From Alphaproteobacteria bacterium (GTDB lineage Bacteria > Pseudomonadota > Alphaproteobacteria > Thalassobaculales > Thalassobaculaceae): a DNA stretch of 64,000 bases. The notes under the pieces were generated by a model that was not told where the DNA came from, made no database searches, and saw nothing but the letters and a program-made list of their open reading frames with translations. Below are positions 52,866 to 58,365 of this stretch, in pieces. A program made the position numbers and the translations under genes. The stretch spans positions 1 to 64,000 of the forward strand of contig JANSYC010000001.1 of assembly GCA_024742605.1 (NCBI GenBank), read 5' to 3'. Position 1 is the stretch's first letter. Every line of letters starts with the position of its first letter.

Positions 52866-53378
52866 TCAGGCGATTTCGTGCGACTTGGTCCCGATGTCCG
52901 ACAACCGCTGGCGCAAGGCAAGATCGTCGATCGTGCGCAGCGGCAGATTGACGAAGATCGAGATCCGCGTGTTCAGCTGCCGGAAGGCCTCGGCGAAGGC
53001 GAACCGCTTTTCGGCCTCGGTCCCCGGAACGGAAACCGGATCGACGATCGGCCAGTGGGCGGCGATCGGCGAGCCCGGCCAGACCGGACAGGTCTCCTTG
53101 GCCGTATCGTCGCAGACCGTGAAGACGAAATCCATCCTGGGTGCTTCAGGTCCTGTGAACTCGTCCCAGCTTTTCGAGCGCAGGCCGTCCACCACGAAGT
53201 TCTGCTGCCGCAGCAGATCGACGGCGTAGGGGTGGAGCGTGCCGGACGGGGCGTTGCCGGCGCTGTGGGCTTTGAACCGGCCTTGGCCGAGACGCTGCAG
53301 GATACATTACGCCATGATGCTGCGGGCGGAGTTGGCGTGACAGAGGAACAGGACGTTGTGCGTGCGATCATGTGTCAT
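52866..53378 (-). pseudogene. arsC: ArsC-type arsenate reductase (LMW-PTP family) interrupted by an in-frame stop
   Basis: From the ATG at 53378 the frame reads MTHDRTHNVLFLCHANSARS, then IMA, then TAA (minus-strand codon at 53307-53309), then CILQRLGQGRFKAHSAGNAPSG and on to TKSHEIA, all in the same frame. The family has Glu (GAA or GAG) at this place (MAE-x-IL), so one G-to-T change explains the stop. The catalytic Cys and Arg of the P-loop (CHANSAR) lie before the stop, the fold after it. Reading through gives 170 codons, a normal length. Arsenate reductase would be lost unless the sequence has an error or the stop is bypassed. Confidence 0.85.
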
Positions 53379-53464
53379 GCTTCGATCCCTCCACGGAAAC
53401 GAGGTCGCGTGTCGCTCCCGCGCGAGGACGCGGGCCGTGCGACTATTCCCCAAGCACTTTTACT

Positions 53465-53482
53465 ATTCAAGTATATTTGAAT
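53465..53482. promoter_or_regulatory. ArsR/SmtB-type operator upstream of the ars genes
   Basis: ATTCAA-GTATAT-TTGAAT is a perfect 6-6-6 inverted repeat in an AT-rich patch, 87 bases upstream of the arsC start. ArsR-family repressors bind imperfect repeats of the ATCAAATAATTTGAT kind, and the site resembles these. No arsR gene is seen in this window, so the regulator must be encoded elsewhere. Confidence 0.55.
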
Positions 53483-53506
53483 TGTTACACTTTGAGGAAG
53501 CGCTCA

Positions 53507-53523
53507 CGCCCAAATTTTAGGCG
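53507..53523. promoter_or_regulatory. 17-bp inverted repeat, possible enhancer site
   Basis: CGCC-CAAATTTTA-GGCG, about 120-134 bases upstream of the sigma-54 promoter, in the zone where enhancer-binding proteins usually bind. The 17-bp length matches NtrC sites, but the arms (CGCC/GGCG) differ from NtrC's GCAC/GTGC. Weak evidence; listed because a sigma-54 promoter needs such a site. Confidence 0.2.
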
Positions 53524-53640
53524 ATTGCCTCCCGGCGGACAGCGGCGCGGGCCCGCGCTCCCGCGCCCCAGAGCGGTTCACCTACGCCATCCACGAGATT
53601 CGCCGGGAAGATCAGCGCACTATCCAAAACCTCCGGGCGC

Positions 53641-53655
53641 TGGCACGGGGCTTGC
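53641..53655 (+). promoter_or_regulatory. Sigma-54 (RpoN) promoter of the guanidine operon
   Basis: TGGCACG-GGGC-TTGC matches the sigma-54 -24/-12 consensus (TGGCACG-N4-TTGC) at every fixed base. The GG at 53642-53643 and GC at 53654-53655 have the required spacing. The predicted transcription start, about 12 bases after the GC, is near 53667. That is the first base of the riboswitch P1 stem. Confidence 0.75.
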
Positions 53656-53667
53656 GGGTCCAGCCCG

Positions 53668-53799
53668 GTGCAGCGCGTCTAGGGTTCCGGCCATGCTCGT
53701 TCATGGTGCTGGTCCGAGAGACGCAATTCGGCCGCAAGCCAGGAACATGGCGACAGGGCCGGAAACACGGCGGGCCAAAATCCCGGGAGGTCACTGCAC
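53668..53799 (+). promoter_or_regulatory. Guanidine-I (ykkC) riboswitch aptamer
   Basis: The three invariant blocks of the guanidine-I aptamer are present in order: CTAGGGTTCCGG (53679-53690), CTGGTCCGAGAGACGCA (53709-53725), and ACACGGCGGG...AAAA..CCCGGGAGG (53765-53790). A perfect P1 closing stem GTGCAG (53668-53673) with CTGCAC (53794-53799) frames them. The class senses free guanidinium and switches on export or degradation genes. It lies about 120 bases before the transporter start. The off/on mechanism is not clear: there is no T-tract terminator, so control may be at translation. Confidence 0.92.
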
Positions 53800-53864
53800 A
53801 GGTTTGCCGAGCGCAAATCCCTCCCTTGGGCCGTGCTCTGCAACCATGACCACGACGTGAGATG

Positions 53865-53887
53865 CGGCGCCCGCAGGCGAGGCGCCG
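53865..53887 (+). promoter_or_regulatory. Hairpin between riboswitch and ABC operon (possible expression platform)
   Basis: Stem CGGCGCC / GGCGCCG with a 9-base loop, between the riboswitch and the ribosome site AAGGAGAG (53903-53910). A stretch CTCCCTT at 53821-53827 could pair with that ribosome site, allowing a translational switch. Both are inferences from base pairing alone. Confidence 0.3.
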
Positions 53888-53916
53888 GTGGCAGTTGCAG
53901 CTAAGGAGAGACGTCC

Positions 53917-54978
53917 ATGATCCGCTCCCTCATCGCCGGTTTGGCAATCGCGTTCGCGCTGACCGCGGCCGCCCCGTCCCAGGCCCAGACCAAAGACAGC
54001 TTCAAAGTGTGCTGGTCGATCTATGTCGGCTGGATGCCCTGGGGCGAGATCCAGTCCTCGGGCCTGATGAAGAAATGGGCCGACAAATACGGCATCTCGG
54101 TCGAGATCACGCAGATCAACGACTACATCGAGTCGATCAACCAATACACGGCCGGCGAATATGACGGCTGCTCCATGACCAATATGGATGCGCTGTCGAT
54201 CCCGTCCGGCGGCGGGGTCGACACCACGGCGCTGATCGTCGGTGACTACTCCGACGGCAATGACGGGATTATCCTGAAGGACAAAACGACGCTGGCCGAC
54301 ATCAAAGGCCAGACGGTCAATCTGGTCGAGTTGTCGGTCTCCCACTACCTGCTGGTCCGGGCGCTCGATTCGGTCGGTCTGACCGAACAGGACATCACCG
54401 TGGTCAACACCTCGGACGCGGATATGGTCGCCGCCTACAGCACGGCGGACGTGACCGCCGTTGTCACCTGGAACCCGCTGCTCAGCGAGATCTCCGCCAT
54501 GTCGAACGCCAATCCGGTCTTCGATTCCAGCCAGACCCCGGGCGAGATCATCGACATCATGATGGTCAACACCGAGACCCTGGCCGCCAATCCGAAGTTC
54601 GGCATGGCCCTGACCGGAGCCTGGTACGAGATGATGTCGATCATGTCGAAGACCGATGCTGCGGGTGCCGCCGCACGGACCGCGATGGCGGAAGCCTCCG
54701 GCACCGATCTGGCCGGTTACGACGCCCAGCTGGCCTCGACCGAGATGTTCTACAGCCCGTCCGACGCGGTCGCCTTCACCAAGGACCCGCTGCTGATGAA
54801 GACCATGGACTTCGTGCGCAGCTTCTTGTTCGCCAAGGGCATTCTGGGGACCAGCGCGGACAGCGTCGACTTCGTCGGCATCGCATTTCCGGACGGCCAG
54901 ATCCTGGGCAACACCGACAACGTCAAACTTCGGTTCGACACCACCTATATGCAGATGGCGGCGGACGGAAAGCTCTAG
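53917..54978 (+). CDS. Guanidine-associated ABC transporter substrate-binding protein (NitT/TauT family)
   Basis: 353 residues with signal peptide MIRSLIAGLAIAFALTAAAPSQA. The mature protein begins QTKDSFKVCWSIYVGWMPWGEI and continues GLMKKWADKYGISVEITQINDYIESINQYTAGEYDGCSMTNMDAL, the NMT1/NrtA-type fold. Family members linked to urea or guanidine genes have this W-rich start. The riboswitch upstream implies that free guanidine (or a guanidino compound) is the ligand. First gene of the operon; AAGGAGAG lies 7-8 bases before the ATG. Confidence 0.82.
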   Translation: MIRSLIAGLAIAFALTAAAPSQAQTKDSFKVCWSIYVGWMPWGEIQSSGLMKKWADKYGISVEITQINDYIESINQYTAGEYDGCSMTNMDALSIPSGGGVDTTALIVGDYSDGNDGIILKDKTTLADIKGQTVNLVELSVSHYLLVRALDSVGLTEQDITVVNTSDADMVAAYSTADVTAVVTWNPLLSEISAMSNANPVFDSSQTPGEIIDIMMVNTETLAANPKFGMALTGAWYEMMSIMSKTDAAGAAARTAMAEASGTDLAGYDAQLASTEMFYSPSDAVAFTKDPLLMKTMDFVRSFLFAKGILGTSADSVDFVGIAFPDGQILGNTDNVKLRFDTTYMQMAADGKL

Positions 54979-55005: not shown

Positions 55006-55839
55006 ATGCGCCTGATCAACCAAAAGATCTCGCGGCCGGCGCATGTCGCGCTGGCCGCGCTGCCTTTCGTGCTCGCCATCATCGCCTACACGGTGGCAAG
55101 CGACCTGCGGCTGCAAGCAAATCCGGCCGACAAGCTGCTGCCGTCCTTCGCGTCCATGGCGGACGCCTTCTGGCGGATGGCGGCCGAACCGGACCGGCGG
55201 TCGGGCGACATTCTGCTCTGGGGTGATACCGCAGCCAGCTTGGCGCGGCTCTGCATCGGGGTGGGGATCTCCACCGGCTTGGCCGTGGTGCTCGGCATTC
55301 CGATCGGGCTGATACCGGTGGCACGCTCCAGCCTGTCCTCCTTCGTCTCGACCCTCTCGCTGATCCCCCCCATCACGGTCCTGCCGGTCCTGTTCATCAT
55401 GGTCGGCCTTGGAGAGCTGTCGAAGATCTCGCTGATCGTGTTCGGAACCGCCCCGGTGATGATCCGGACCATCGCCCTCGCCGTCGCGGAGCTGCCGAAG
55501 GAACTGTTGATCAAGGCCCAGACATTGGGGGCCTCCACCTGGCAGATCATTCTCCGGGTTGTCCTGCCGCAGATCCTGCCTCGGGTGGTGGTGGCGATCC
55601 GGCTGGGTCTGGTGCCGGCCTGGATTTTCCTGATCTCTGCCGAGGCCATCGCTTCGACCGAGGGCCTGGGCTACCGCATCTTCCTGGTGCGCCGCTATCT
55701 GGCGATGGACATCATCCTGCCCTATGTCGCCTGGATCACCGTCATCGCGGTGGTGCTCGACCGAGGACTGCTGATGCTCTCACGCAAGAGCTTCCGGTGG
55801 GCCCATCTGGGAGACGACGCCGAGGGGGGCCGGCTATGA
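55006..55839 (+). CDS. ABC transporter permease (TauC/SsuC type) of the guanidine operon
   Basis: 277 residues with six membrane helices (for example about 13-32 and 78-102). The EAA loop is ELPKELLIKAQTLGASTWQIILRVVLPQILPRVV (about 160-195), followed by RLGLVPAWIFLISAEAIASTEGLGYRIFLVRRYLAMDIILPYVAWI, typical of NitT/TauT permeases. It starts 28 bases after the binding-protein gene and overlaps the ATPase start by 4 bases (ATGA). Confidence 0.9.
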   Translation: MRLINQKISRPAHVALAALPFVLAIIAYTVASDLRLQANPADKLLPSFASMADAFWRMAAEPDRRSGDILLWGDTAASLARLCIGVGISTGLAVVLGIPIGLIPVARSSLSSFVSTLSLIPPITVLPVLFIMVGLGELSKISLIVFGTAPVMIRTIALAVAELPKELLIKAQTLGASTWQIILRVVLPQILPRVVVAIRLGLVPAWIFLISAEAIASTEGLGYRIFLVRRYLAMDIILPYVAWITVIAVVLDRGLLMLSRKSFRWAHLGDDAEGGRL

Positions 55840-56639
55840 CGGCGTCCGGCATCTCGGTGCGCGACCTCTCGATGTCCTATGATGGGGTCCCGATCCTGGA
55901 ACGGGTCTCGATCGATATCGCGTTCGGCACCTTCTGTACCATCGTGGGTGCCTCCGGTTGCGGCAAGTCGACCTTCCTTCGCTTGCTTCTGGGCCAGGAG
56001 CGTCCGTCAGGTGGTATGATCCTGCTCGACGACGCGCCGATCCCGCATGAGCCGACACCGGAGCGCGGCATCGTGTTCCAGCGCTATTCGATCTTCCCGC
56101 ATCTTACGGTGCGAGAGAACCTCCTAATGGCGGCGGATTTCCAGGGCTCGCCGTTTCTGGGGCGTATCTTCGGGGCCCGACGCCGGGCGGCACGGGAGGC
56201 GGCGGACGCCCTGTTGGAGAAGGTCGGCCTGACCGCTGCCGCCGACCGCTATCCCGCCCAGCTTTCGGGCGGCATGCAGCAGCGGGTAGCGATCGCCCAG
56301 GCACTGACGATGAAGCCGAAAGTGCTGCTGATGGACGAGCCCTTCGGCGCGCTGGACCCCGGCGTCCGCGCCGACATGCAGAGCTTGATCCTGGAGATCT
56401 GGCGCGAGCAGGATATGACGGTATTCATGGTCACCCATGATCTGCAGGAGGCCTTCAGACTGGGAACGCGACTGATCGCCTTCGACAAGGTTCGGGTCGA
56501 TCCGCAGTTCCCGAATGCCTATGGCGCCAGGATCACCTACGATCTGCCGATCGACGATGTCACCGAGCCTCCAATGGATCCGGATGCCGGATTAGCCTTA
56601 CCCGACAATAGGGCCGAAGGAGCCGAAATCGCATGCTGA
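55836..56639 (+). CDS. ABC transporter ATP-binding protein (TauB/SsuB type) of the guanidine operon
   Basis: 267 residues from the ATG at 55836. Walker A GASGCGKSTFLRLLLG, Q-loop VFQRYSIFPHLTVRENLLMA, signature LSGGMQQRVAIAQALTM, Walker B VLLMDEPFGALD, switch His VTHDLQEAFRLG. A C-terminal extension (about 45 residues, ending DNRAEGAEIAC) is acidic. Its stop lies inside the start of the ureohydrolase gene (7-base overlap), so the import and hydrolase genes are translationally linked. Confidence 0.92.
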   Translation: MTASGISVRDLSMSYDGVPILERVSIDIAFGTFCTIVGASGCGKSTFLRLLLGQERPSGGMILLDDAPIPHEPTPERGIVFQRYSIFPHLTVRENLLMAADFQGSPFLGRIFGARRRAAREAADALLEKVGLTAAADRYPAQLSGGMQQRVAIAQALTMKPKVLLMDEPFGALDPGVRADMQSLILEIWREQDMTVFMVTHDLQEAFRLGTRLIAFDKVRVDPQFPNAYGARITYDLPIDDVTEPPMDPDAGLALPDNRAEGAEIAC

Positions 56640-57865
56640 ACGACCGCCTGTCCCGCCGCACCACCTCCCGCGCCGGCGCGCCGCTTGATCGCTCCCGGAT
56701 CGGACGGCCCCAATTCGGCCGCCGGTTCCATCATCCGGACTTCAATGCCCGGGAGACCCAGGGGTGGAAATCCGTCCAGGCCGAGGGACGTCTGCCCGAG
56801 GACGGCTGGCGCCAGGAGCAGCAATGGGCGCTCGACATGGGCCTGCCGGGGTCCGACAGCCTGACCGACAAGACCATCCCGACCTTCGCGCGGGGGGAGC
56901 TGCCGCATTTCGCCGGCATCAACACCTTCCTCAAGGCGCCCTATGTTGAGAATGTGCGGGATGTGGGCAAATTCGATGCTGCGGTGCTGGGAATCCCATT
57001 CGACAGCGGCACCACCTACCGACCCGGCACCCGCTTCGGCCCGCAGGGCATGCGCCGCATCTCCGCCCTCTACACCCCCTACAATTACGAGATGGGGGTA
57101 GATCTGCGGGAACAGATGACCCTGTGCGATGCCGGCGACGTGTTCACGATCCCGGCGAATCTGGAGAAGAGCTTCGACCAGATCACCAAGGGCGTCAGCC
57201 ACGTGTTCTCGTCCGGCGCGCTGCCGATCATGCTGGGCGGCGACCACTCGATCGGCTTCCCCTGCGTGCGTGGCATCGCGCAATGCACCAGCAAACGGAT
57301 CGGCATCATCCATTTCGACCGCCATATCGATATCCAGGAGAAGGACCTGGACGAGCGGATGCACACCACGCCCTGGTACTGGGCGACCGAGATGGACAAT
57401 GTACCCGCCACCAATTTGGTGCAGCTCGGCATCGGCGGCTGGCAGGTGCCCCGTGCCGGGGTCCAGGAAGCCCGCAAGCGCGAGACCAATGTGCTGACCA
57501 TCGACGATATCGAACGGCTCGGCCTGGAGAAGACCGCCGAGATCGCGTTGGAACTGGCCTGGAAGGATGCCGACGCGGTCTATATCTCCTTCGACGTGGA
57601 TTCGGTCGATTGCGGCTTCGTGCCGGGAACCGGCTGGCCAGAGCCCGGCGGATTCCTGCCGCGTGAGGTGCTGAAACTGCTGGGTCTGGTCTCCGCCCCA
57701 GGCATCTGCGGGCTGGAAGTGGTCGAGGTCAGCCCGCCCTACGACACCTCCGACATCACAGCATTGCTCGGGGTCCGGGTGGCGGTCGAGGTGATGGGAT
57801 CGCTGGTCGCCCACGGCAAGATGGGCTCCCACAAGGGCATCATCGACAAGCCGGTCAGCTTCTAG
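56633..57865 (+). CDS. gdmH: Guanidine hydrolase GdmH-like (agmatinase-family ureohydrolase)
   Basis: 410 residues, much longer than agmatinase (about 310), with a roughly 95-residue N-terminal extension (NDRLSRRTTSRAG...PQFGRRFHHPDF). Metal ligands fit H205 (GGDHSIGFP), D229-R-H231-I-D233 and D321-V-D323. The usual DAHxD is DRHID here (R230), and PGTGWPEPGG carries W334. The arginase fold hydrolyses guanidino compounds to urea; GdmH of cyanobacteria cleaves free guanidine to urea and ammonia with nickel. The riboswitch and N-terminal length support GdmH over agmatinase. No urease genes are in the window. Confidence 0.8.
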   Translation: MLNDRLSRRTTSRAGAPLDRSRIGRPQFGRRFHHPDFNARETQGWKSVQAEGRLPEDGWRQEQQWALDMGLPGSDSLTDKTIPTFARGELPHFAGINTFLKAPYVENVRDVGKFDAAVLGIPFDSGTTYRPGTRFGPQGMRRISALYTPYNYEMGVDLREQMTLCDAGDVFTIPANLEKSFDQITKGVSHVFSSGALPIMLGGDHSIGFPCVRGIAQCTSKRIGIIHFDRHIDIQEKDLDERMHTTPWYWATEMDNVPATNLVQLGIGGWQVPRAGVQEARKRETNVLTIDDIERLGLEKTAEIALELAWKDADAVYISFDVDSVDCGFVPGTGWPEPGGFLPREVLKLLGLVSAPGICGLEVVEVSPPYDTSDITALLGVRVAVEVMGSLVAHGKMGSHKGIIDKPVSF

Positions 57866-57879
57866 GGGGAGAGCCGCAC

Positions 57880-58365
57880 ATGCACAGCCCCAACCCCCAC
57901 CCGCATTCGCACGGCCATTCCCACGGGCATTCCCACGAGCCGGGCCATAACGCCCACGATCATGCGCCGACACAGTGGCAGACCCCGCACCTGCCGGAGG
58001 GCGCGGTGGAATCTGCACCCGAACCGGACAGCCGCAAAGATCTGGATTTGGTCGAGAAAGCCTTTGTCGACGGCTTCGCGGTCACCCAGGACGCGACCAG
58101 CTTCCTGCGGCTGGCCTGCATTCCGTTTTCCGCCATAAAGCCCGACGGCACCCGGCTCAAACTGTTGCGGGTCGAGCAGGCGGCACGGGTCGATGTCGGC
58201 TCGGTAACGCCGCACATCGGCGGCGACAGCTTCCGGTACGACCCGCTGCCGGCGGCCATGACCTCGCGCCGGGACGATCTGCGCTTCATCTATTTCGACG
58301 GCACCGGCACGGTGGGTCTCAGTCTGGGCGAGGTCCGGGATCTGAAGGACGATACCGAGACCTGA
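57880..58365 (+). CDS. His-rich protein next to guanidine hydrolase, unknown family
   Basis: 161 residues. The N-terminus is a His/Gly/Pro/Ser stretch (about 2-32, HSPNPHPHSHGHSHGHSH then EPGHNAHDHAP) with about 11 His. The rest is a compact soluble domain (DLDLVEKAFVDGFAVTQDATSFLRLACIPFSAIKPDGTRLKLLRVEQAARVDVGSVTP...) with one Cys and no CxxC. I do not recognise the domain. His tails of this kind store or deliver nickel in HypB- and UreE-like proteins. It follows gdmH by 14 bases, so nickel or metal loading of GdmH is a reasonable guess. It does not look like HypA or HypB. Confidence 0.6.
   Translation: MHSPNPHPHSHGHSHGHSHEPGHNAHDHAPTQWQTPHLPEGAVESAPEPDSRKDLDLVEKAFVDGFAVTQDATSFLRLACIPFSAIKPDGTRLKLLRVEQAARVDVGSVTPHIGGDSFRYDPLPAAMTSRRDDLRFIYFDGTGTVGLSLGEVRDLKDDTET

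Follow-up and report, generated by a model that had tools for sequence, protein, structure and literature searches.

A predicted sigma-54 promoter whose start would coincide with the first base used by a Guanidine-I riboswitch in an alphaproteobacterium

In the 64,000-nucleotide stretch of alphaproteobacterial DNA that was analyzed here (the window), we strongly predict a sigma-54 promoter, most likely driven by NtrC, whose transcript would begin with the first base that a Guanidine-I (ykkC) riboswitch uses. The evidence is computational. It consists of the elements themselves (Table 1), their conservation, spacing, and helical phasing in relatives, the covariation of a helix that closes the aptamer, and the presence of both RpoN and NtrC in the genome. 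We consider it very probable that this combination works as a two-input AND switch, in which nitrogen limitation and guanidine would jointly control an operon for the uptake and hydrolysis of guanidine.

Table 1. Features of the promoter, riboswitch, and operon, in window coordinates.
Feature	Position	Strand	Basis
NtrC-like enhancer dyad TCACGCCCAAATTTTAGGCGATT	53504-53526	.	de novo dyad in alphaproteobacterial loci
-24 element TGGCACG	53641-53647	+	read from sequence; position-conserved, 36/46 alphaproteobacterial loci
-12 element TTGC	53652-53655	+	read from sequence; GG-N10-GC spacing; conserved
Predicted transcription start (+1)	53667	+	12 nt past GC of -12 element; pairing of closing helix fades there in relatives
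Guanidine-I riboswitch aptamer (RF00442)	53668-53791	+	cmscan 74.7 bits, E 1.9e-11
Closing helix P0, 5′ strand GUGCAG	53668-53673	+	pairs with 53794-53799
Closing helix P0, 3′ strand CUGCAC	53794-53799	+	directly behind aptamer
Competing stem: aptamer 3′ GGGAGG (53785-53790) with CCUCCC (53820-53825)	53785-53825	+	MFE fold
ABC transporter substrate-binding protein, TIGR03427 family	53917-54978	+	545.5 bits, cut-off 333.9
ABC transporter permease (TauC/SsuC-like)	55006-55839	+	below curated cut-offs, family-level only
ABC transporter ATPase (NrtD-like)	55797-56639	+	below curated cut-offs, family-level only
Guanidine hydrolase (GdmH-like, arginase/agmatinase superfamily)	56633-57865	+	7esr/7oi1, 9fek; PF00491
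161-aa protein, His-rich N-terminus	57880-58365	+	sequence read

The promoter, the aptamer, and the helix that closes it

The + strand reads TGGCACG-GGGC-TTGC at 53641-53655. A first, sequence-only reading of this DNA had described a match to the sigma-54 consensus at all fixed bases, and this we confirm: TGGCACG-N4-TTGC stands at the -24/-12 spacing, with the GG at 53642-43 and the GC at 53654-55 lying 10 nt apart, and the sole mismatch to a longer sigma-54 consensus is a G in place of A or T directly after TTGC. Given that spacing, the predicted start falls near 53667, as had also been proposed. The genome encodes RpoN (PF04552, E 6.4e-70). Taken alone, the motif counts for little: the 4.47-Mb genome holds 6 exact copies of the pattern and 1 of its reverse, and the weight comes from its position.

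That position is immediately ahead of the only Guanidine-I match in the genome, which covers the full model (positions 1-107) and exceeds the gathering score of 63. The first reading had placed the beginning of helix P1 at 53668, which is not exact: it is the Rfam match that begins there, model positions 1-6 are unpaired, and the local P1 begins at about 53674. Its further remark, that the arrangement leaves almost no spare RNA, holds up well, because the first transcribed bases form part of a conserved helix. At many alphaproteobacterial loci with guanidinase-type operons, these bases are complementary to a stretch just behind the aptamer, and in the window they form the helix P0, which lies outside the Rfam Guanidine-I model.

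How well supported is this closing helix? When each locus was paired with its own partner and with swapped ones, the own partner paired better in 5000 of 5000 permutations, in a test that ignores relatedness. When 34 loci are aligned, 98.3% of the P0 cells are paired, compared with 9-60% for slid versions of the helix, and two pairs covary, with few independent events. For the 43 loci that have the helix, and taking the predicted start as position 0, the paired fraction is 0.95-1.0 at positions 2-6, 0.88 at position 1, 0.74 at position 0, and 0.42 just upstream; positions 0-6 are paired partly by selection of these loci, which does not, however, impose the fall in pairing at the predicted start. 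The closing helix, whose pairing fades there, lends independent support to this start.

One can go further and suppose that the aptamer needs the 5′ end fixed by sigma-54 in order to close, such that only nitrogen-controlled transcripts would form a working guanidine switch, and read-through from other promoters would be unregulated. We regard this as tentative and rather doubtful. If true, promoter and aptamer would constitute a single co-evolved module across Pseudomonadota.

Conservation of the promoter at Guanidine-I riboswitches

We gathered Guanidine-I loci from the class and the phylum and analyzed each of them together with its flanks, 700 bases on the upstream side and 7 kb on the downstream side. 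The sample comprises 86 pseudomonadotal loci, 46 from alphaproteobacteria and 40 others. Sites were scored by a simple count over 11 fixed bases, searching up to 115 nt upstream and requiring a score of at least 9. Such a site is present at 36 of the 46 alphaproteobacterial loci, spanning 16 families, compared with 2.1% of control windows, and at 36 of the 40 other loci, compared with 2.3%. Upstream of TPP riboswitches in the same genomes, none of 27 regions has a site at this threshold; in comparison with TPP, the sigma-54 pairing is specific to the Guanidine-I riboswitch. A chance match is ruled out by the conserved position, the control windows, and the comparison with TPP.

The position is also constrained. 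At 34 of the 36 alphaproteobacterial loci with a site, 10-16 nt separate the predicted start from the invariant TAGGG core that follows it, and the spacing of the motif is fixed across the 16 families while the flanking sequence drifts. Across the named loci the distance is 11-15 nt in 50 of 72, and in beta- and gammaproteobacteria it is mostly 35-85 nt. The downstream genes vary among relatives between a hydrolase operon and a guanidine carboxylase operon (urea-carboxylase family, with UAAP proteins). The promoter occurs with both, at 12 of 16 hydrolase and 17 of 22 carboxylase operons in alphaproteobacteria, and at 27 of 31 carboxylase operons in beta- and gammaproteobacteria.

The sequence-only reading had called the combination of sigma-54 and a riboswitch seldom described. 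The rarity that this suggests is not borne out: most of the sampled pseudomonadotal Guanidine-I loci carry a sigma-54 site, and the pairing is the rule, not an oddity, in the alpha-, beta-, and gammaproteobacteria sampled. The same reading had proposed that RpoN is coupled to a guanidine sensor, and this proposal is strengthened by a site and a spacing that are conserved across the class, by the phased NtrC-like dyad upstream that is common to glnK-amtB promoters, by the presence of RpoN and of an NtrC bearing GAFTGA in the genome, and by the loss of the site in genomes without RpoN (two loci examined).

Regarding that loss, three genomes of one family (f23; G628, G722, and G599) have a Guanidine-I match and no RpoN match. 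The two loci examined from such genomes, L226 and L233, keep the riboswitch and seem to retain the alphaproteobacterial type of dyad, and the sigma-54 site is absent. According to published work (PMC10274813), in Rhodobacterales and Caulobacter NtrC has no GAFTGA loop and works with sigma-70; a dyad without a sigma-54 site in L226 and L233, a small sample, fits that picture. Guanidine-I loci of Sinorhizobium/Ensifer and Ancylobacter have no sigma-54 site either, and by eye show a sigma-70-like sequence where the site would be. Nor is there a site in some lineages that do bear RpoN, namely genus g54 of family f43, and families f124 and f171.

Individual loci show other arrangements. At L087, L094, L099, L101, L117, and similar loci of Ancylobacter and its relatives, the riboswitch stands directly before the hydrolase gene and not before a transporter, and the sigma-54 site is absent. 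Three loci from one f43 genus in which RpoN is present and the site absent (L159, L165, and L171) have TTGTATACAGAG or TTGCATACAGAG directly before the aptamer, possibly a GntR-type operator. One genome (G708, contig C3 20710-21394) has a divergent pair of Guanidine-I riboswitches, L227 and L231, separated by about 440 bp and with a sigma-54-like site at each. And between the sigma-54 start and the aptamer, L182-L201 and other beta- and gammaproteobacterial loci have a conserved leader element 35-85 nt long, ...CACAAT...AATRG..., which pairs better with its own downstream region than with swapped ones, relatedness being ignored.

The upstream dyad, its probable activator NtrC, and the alternatives

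The enteric NtrC site GCAC-N7-GTGC is enriched at the beta- and gammaproteobacterial loci, but it is not enriched at the alphaproteobacterial ones and is absent from the window, so that, having been tested, it was discarded as the activator site in alphaproteobacteria. Because of that result we performed an unbiased search over gapped dyads. In beta- and gammaproteobacteria the top dyad is GCAC-N7-GTGC, that is, the known NtrC site. In alphaproteobacteria it is TGCC-N9-GGCA, found in 13 of 65 non-redundant loci compared with 0.9 expected, and similar but not identical to the enteric consensus. NtrC sites in Rhodobacter capsulatus are of the type CGCC-N9-GGC.

Refinement gives the motif TGCC-YAAnnnTTR-GGCA, which occurs at most alphaproteobacterial loci between -74 and -152, with positions phased at 10.8 bp (R=0.74, compared with a null maximum of 0.42 for jittered positions). 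For 68 of 86 loci the dyad score exceeds the control 95% level, which leaves about a fifth of the alphaproteobacterial loci within background. The copy in the window, CGCCCAAATTTTAGGCG, has the core CGCC-N9-GGCG at 53507-53523 and is centered 152 bp before the predicted start (-152). It is among the best copies, with a leave-family-out score of 19.5 that none of 300 shuffles reached.

The dyad, trained on guanidine loci only, also scores above the shuffled 99% level at 21 of 25 glnK-amtB sigma-54 promoters in the same genomes, and there its phased distances are similar to those at the guanidine loci. At the amtB promoter of the genome under study, the sigma-54-like site (CGGCATACTTCTTGA) and the dyad are both weak. 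Since guanidine loci and glnK-amtB promoters share the dyad, NtrC is the likely activator of the guanidine promoter. The genome encodes an NtrC (TIGR01818, 702 bits) with GAFTGA present.

Could the sigma-54 promoter be real, and yet respond in alphaproteobacteria to an enhancer-binding protein other than NtrC, such that the second input would not be nitrogen limitation? The alphaproteobacterial dyad does differ from the enteric NtrC sites, and NtrC is one of four clear sigma-54 activators in the genome, so there are three other proteins to choose from, one of them containing a PAS domain. We nevertheless consider this unlikely, given the recurrence of the guanidine-trained dyad at glnK-amtB promoters at the same phased distances, and the classic NtrC site at the orthologous beta- and gammaproteobacterial loci. 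And none of the four activators is encoded on this contig, which rules out a local activator gene beside the operon.

An NtrC-driven sigma-54 promoter must also be weighed against a main promoter of the sigma-70 type elsewhere upstream, with TGGCACG-N4-TTGC minor or unused. The sigma-70-like sequence seen by eye at the same spot in Sinorhizobium and Ancylobacter indicates that a promoter of another kind can serve the riboswitch. For the window this explanation is very improbable: there is no sigma-70-like site in 53372-53940, the motif keeps its spacing in 16 alphaproteobacterial families amid drifting surroundings, and the conserved closing helix fades at the start predicted for sigma-54.

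Finally, the TGGCACG/TTGC block could be no promoter, but an extended piece of riboswitch RNA structure or a chance match, as any single one of six exact copies in a genome might be; this can be safely dismissed, given that in beta- and gammaproteobacteria 35-85 nt, and not 10-16, separate the block from the core, as fits a promoter and not a fixed RNA part, that it follows sigma-54 column preferences, that it is lost in RpoN-less genomes, and that phased enhancer dyads accompany it.

The operon, the proposed switch, and known systems

The hydrolase of the operon has 7esr/7oi1 (E 1.2e-161) and 9fek as its best solved relatives, scoring 541 bits against 7esr and 517 against 9fek, with the next best at 177; solved guanidine hydrolases are thus closer to it than any agmatinase, arginase, or guanidinobutyrase. 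The structure 7oi1 is that of Synechocystis Sll1077. These closest structures correspond to the GdmH enzymes of Synechocystis and comammox Nitrospira. In Synechocystis, GdmH is accompanied by the nickel chaperones HypA/HypB, whereas here the neighbors are the ABC transporter and the His-rich protein, with no recognizable HypA/HypB. HypA or HypB as the gene after gdmH is thus unsupported. The 161-aa protein has no Pfam or NCBIfam match and clusters with ORFs found at the same place in relatives. It is a possible candidate for supplying metal to the hydrolase.

Between aptamer and operon, the competing stem encloses an inner hairpin, GGUUUGC/GCAAAUC. Across 34 relatives, its outer (sixth) pair covaries, being A-U in 20, G-C in 10, and G-U in 1. 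The fold of the window leader is no more stable than that of shuffled sequences (z +0.30 and -0.20). A canonical U-tract terminator was rejected for the window leader, where none was found; plausible ones occur only in some relatives. In view of this, expression is probably stopped in a Rho-dependent or translational manner.

From these elements we infer how the switch might operate, including the actual start, the binding of NtrC, the response to guanidine, and the mode of arrest. Under nitrogen limitation, phosphorylated NtrC would bind the dyad and loop to the sigma-54 RNA polymerase waiting at the -24/-12 element, and transcription would start at about 53667. The RNA would fold while emerging, and its first bases, GUGCAG, would later close the helix with CUGCAC behind the aptamer. 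With guanidine bound, aptamer and closing helix would hold the 3′ GGGAGG, and the RNA would run on into the transporter and hydrolase genes. Without guanidine, GGGAGG would pair with the downstream CCUCCC, and expression would be stopped. The genes would then be on only when a shortage of nitrogen coincides with the presence of guanidine.

Much of this has known counterparts. The full-length RF00442 match above the gathering score, located upstream of guanidine uptake and degradation genes, is as in Guanidine-I operons already described (PMC12186494, PMC11410670). The promoter has the same -24/-12 element and helically phased upstream dyad as the NtrC/sigma-54 promoters of glnK-amtB and glnA, but here the RNA serves, right from its 5′ end, as a metabolite sensor, which adds a second, substrate-specific input. 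Among predicted regulons (PMC5343134, PMC12316311), as given in the main texts, atzF in Rhizobiales is assigned to NtrC, as is speB in betaproteobacteria, and COG3665 genes annotated as urea carboxylase are assigned to sigma-54. Probably these operons are in part the same as the guanidine operons considered here, although those main texts make no link to the guanidine riboswitch, to its position, or to guanidine as a substrate. The open-license literature on guanidine riboswitches that we searched deals with the RNA alone and names neither sigma-54 (RpoN) nor NtrC as a regulator; an earlier description may exist elsewhere. The parts are of known kinds, and what appears to be new is their conserved union and the closing helix anchored at the start.

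Whether guanidine is physiologically a toxin or a nutrient is still unsettled according to a 2025 review (PMC12186494). A conserved nitrogen-limitation promoter at Guanidine-I riboswitches points to a role of these operons in nitrogen nutrition in Pseudomonadota. It also predicts that guanidine alone may not suffice to induce them in rich media. As proposed, the arrangement would be a natural AND gate, an enhancer-dependent promoter joined to a riboswitch such that the 5′ end is the first RNA element.

Two minor observations concern the sequence on the other side of the dyad. On the - strand, 52868-53378 holds a divergent frame that by eye resembles a low-molecular-weight phosphatase or arsenate reductase (MTHDRTHNVLFLCHANSARSIMA). 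Its codon 23 is followed by an in-frame TAA (53307-53309); judging by eye, it is a pseudogene or an assembly error. Between this gene and the NtrC-like dyad, at 53465-53482, lies the palindrome ATTCAAGTATATTTGAAT, which resembles an ArsR-type operator.
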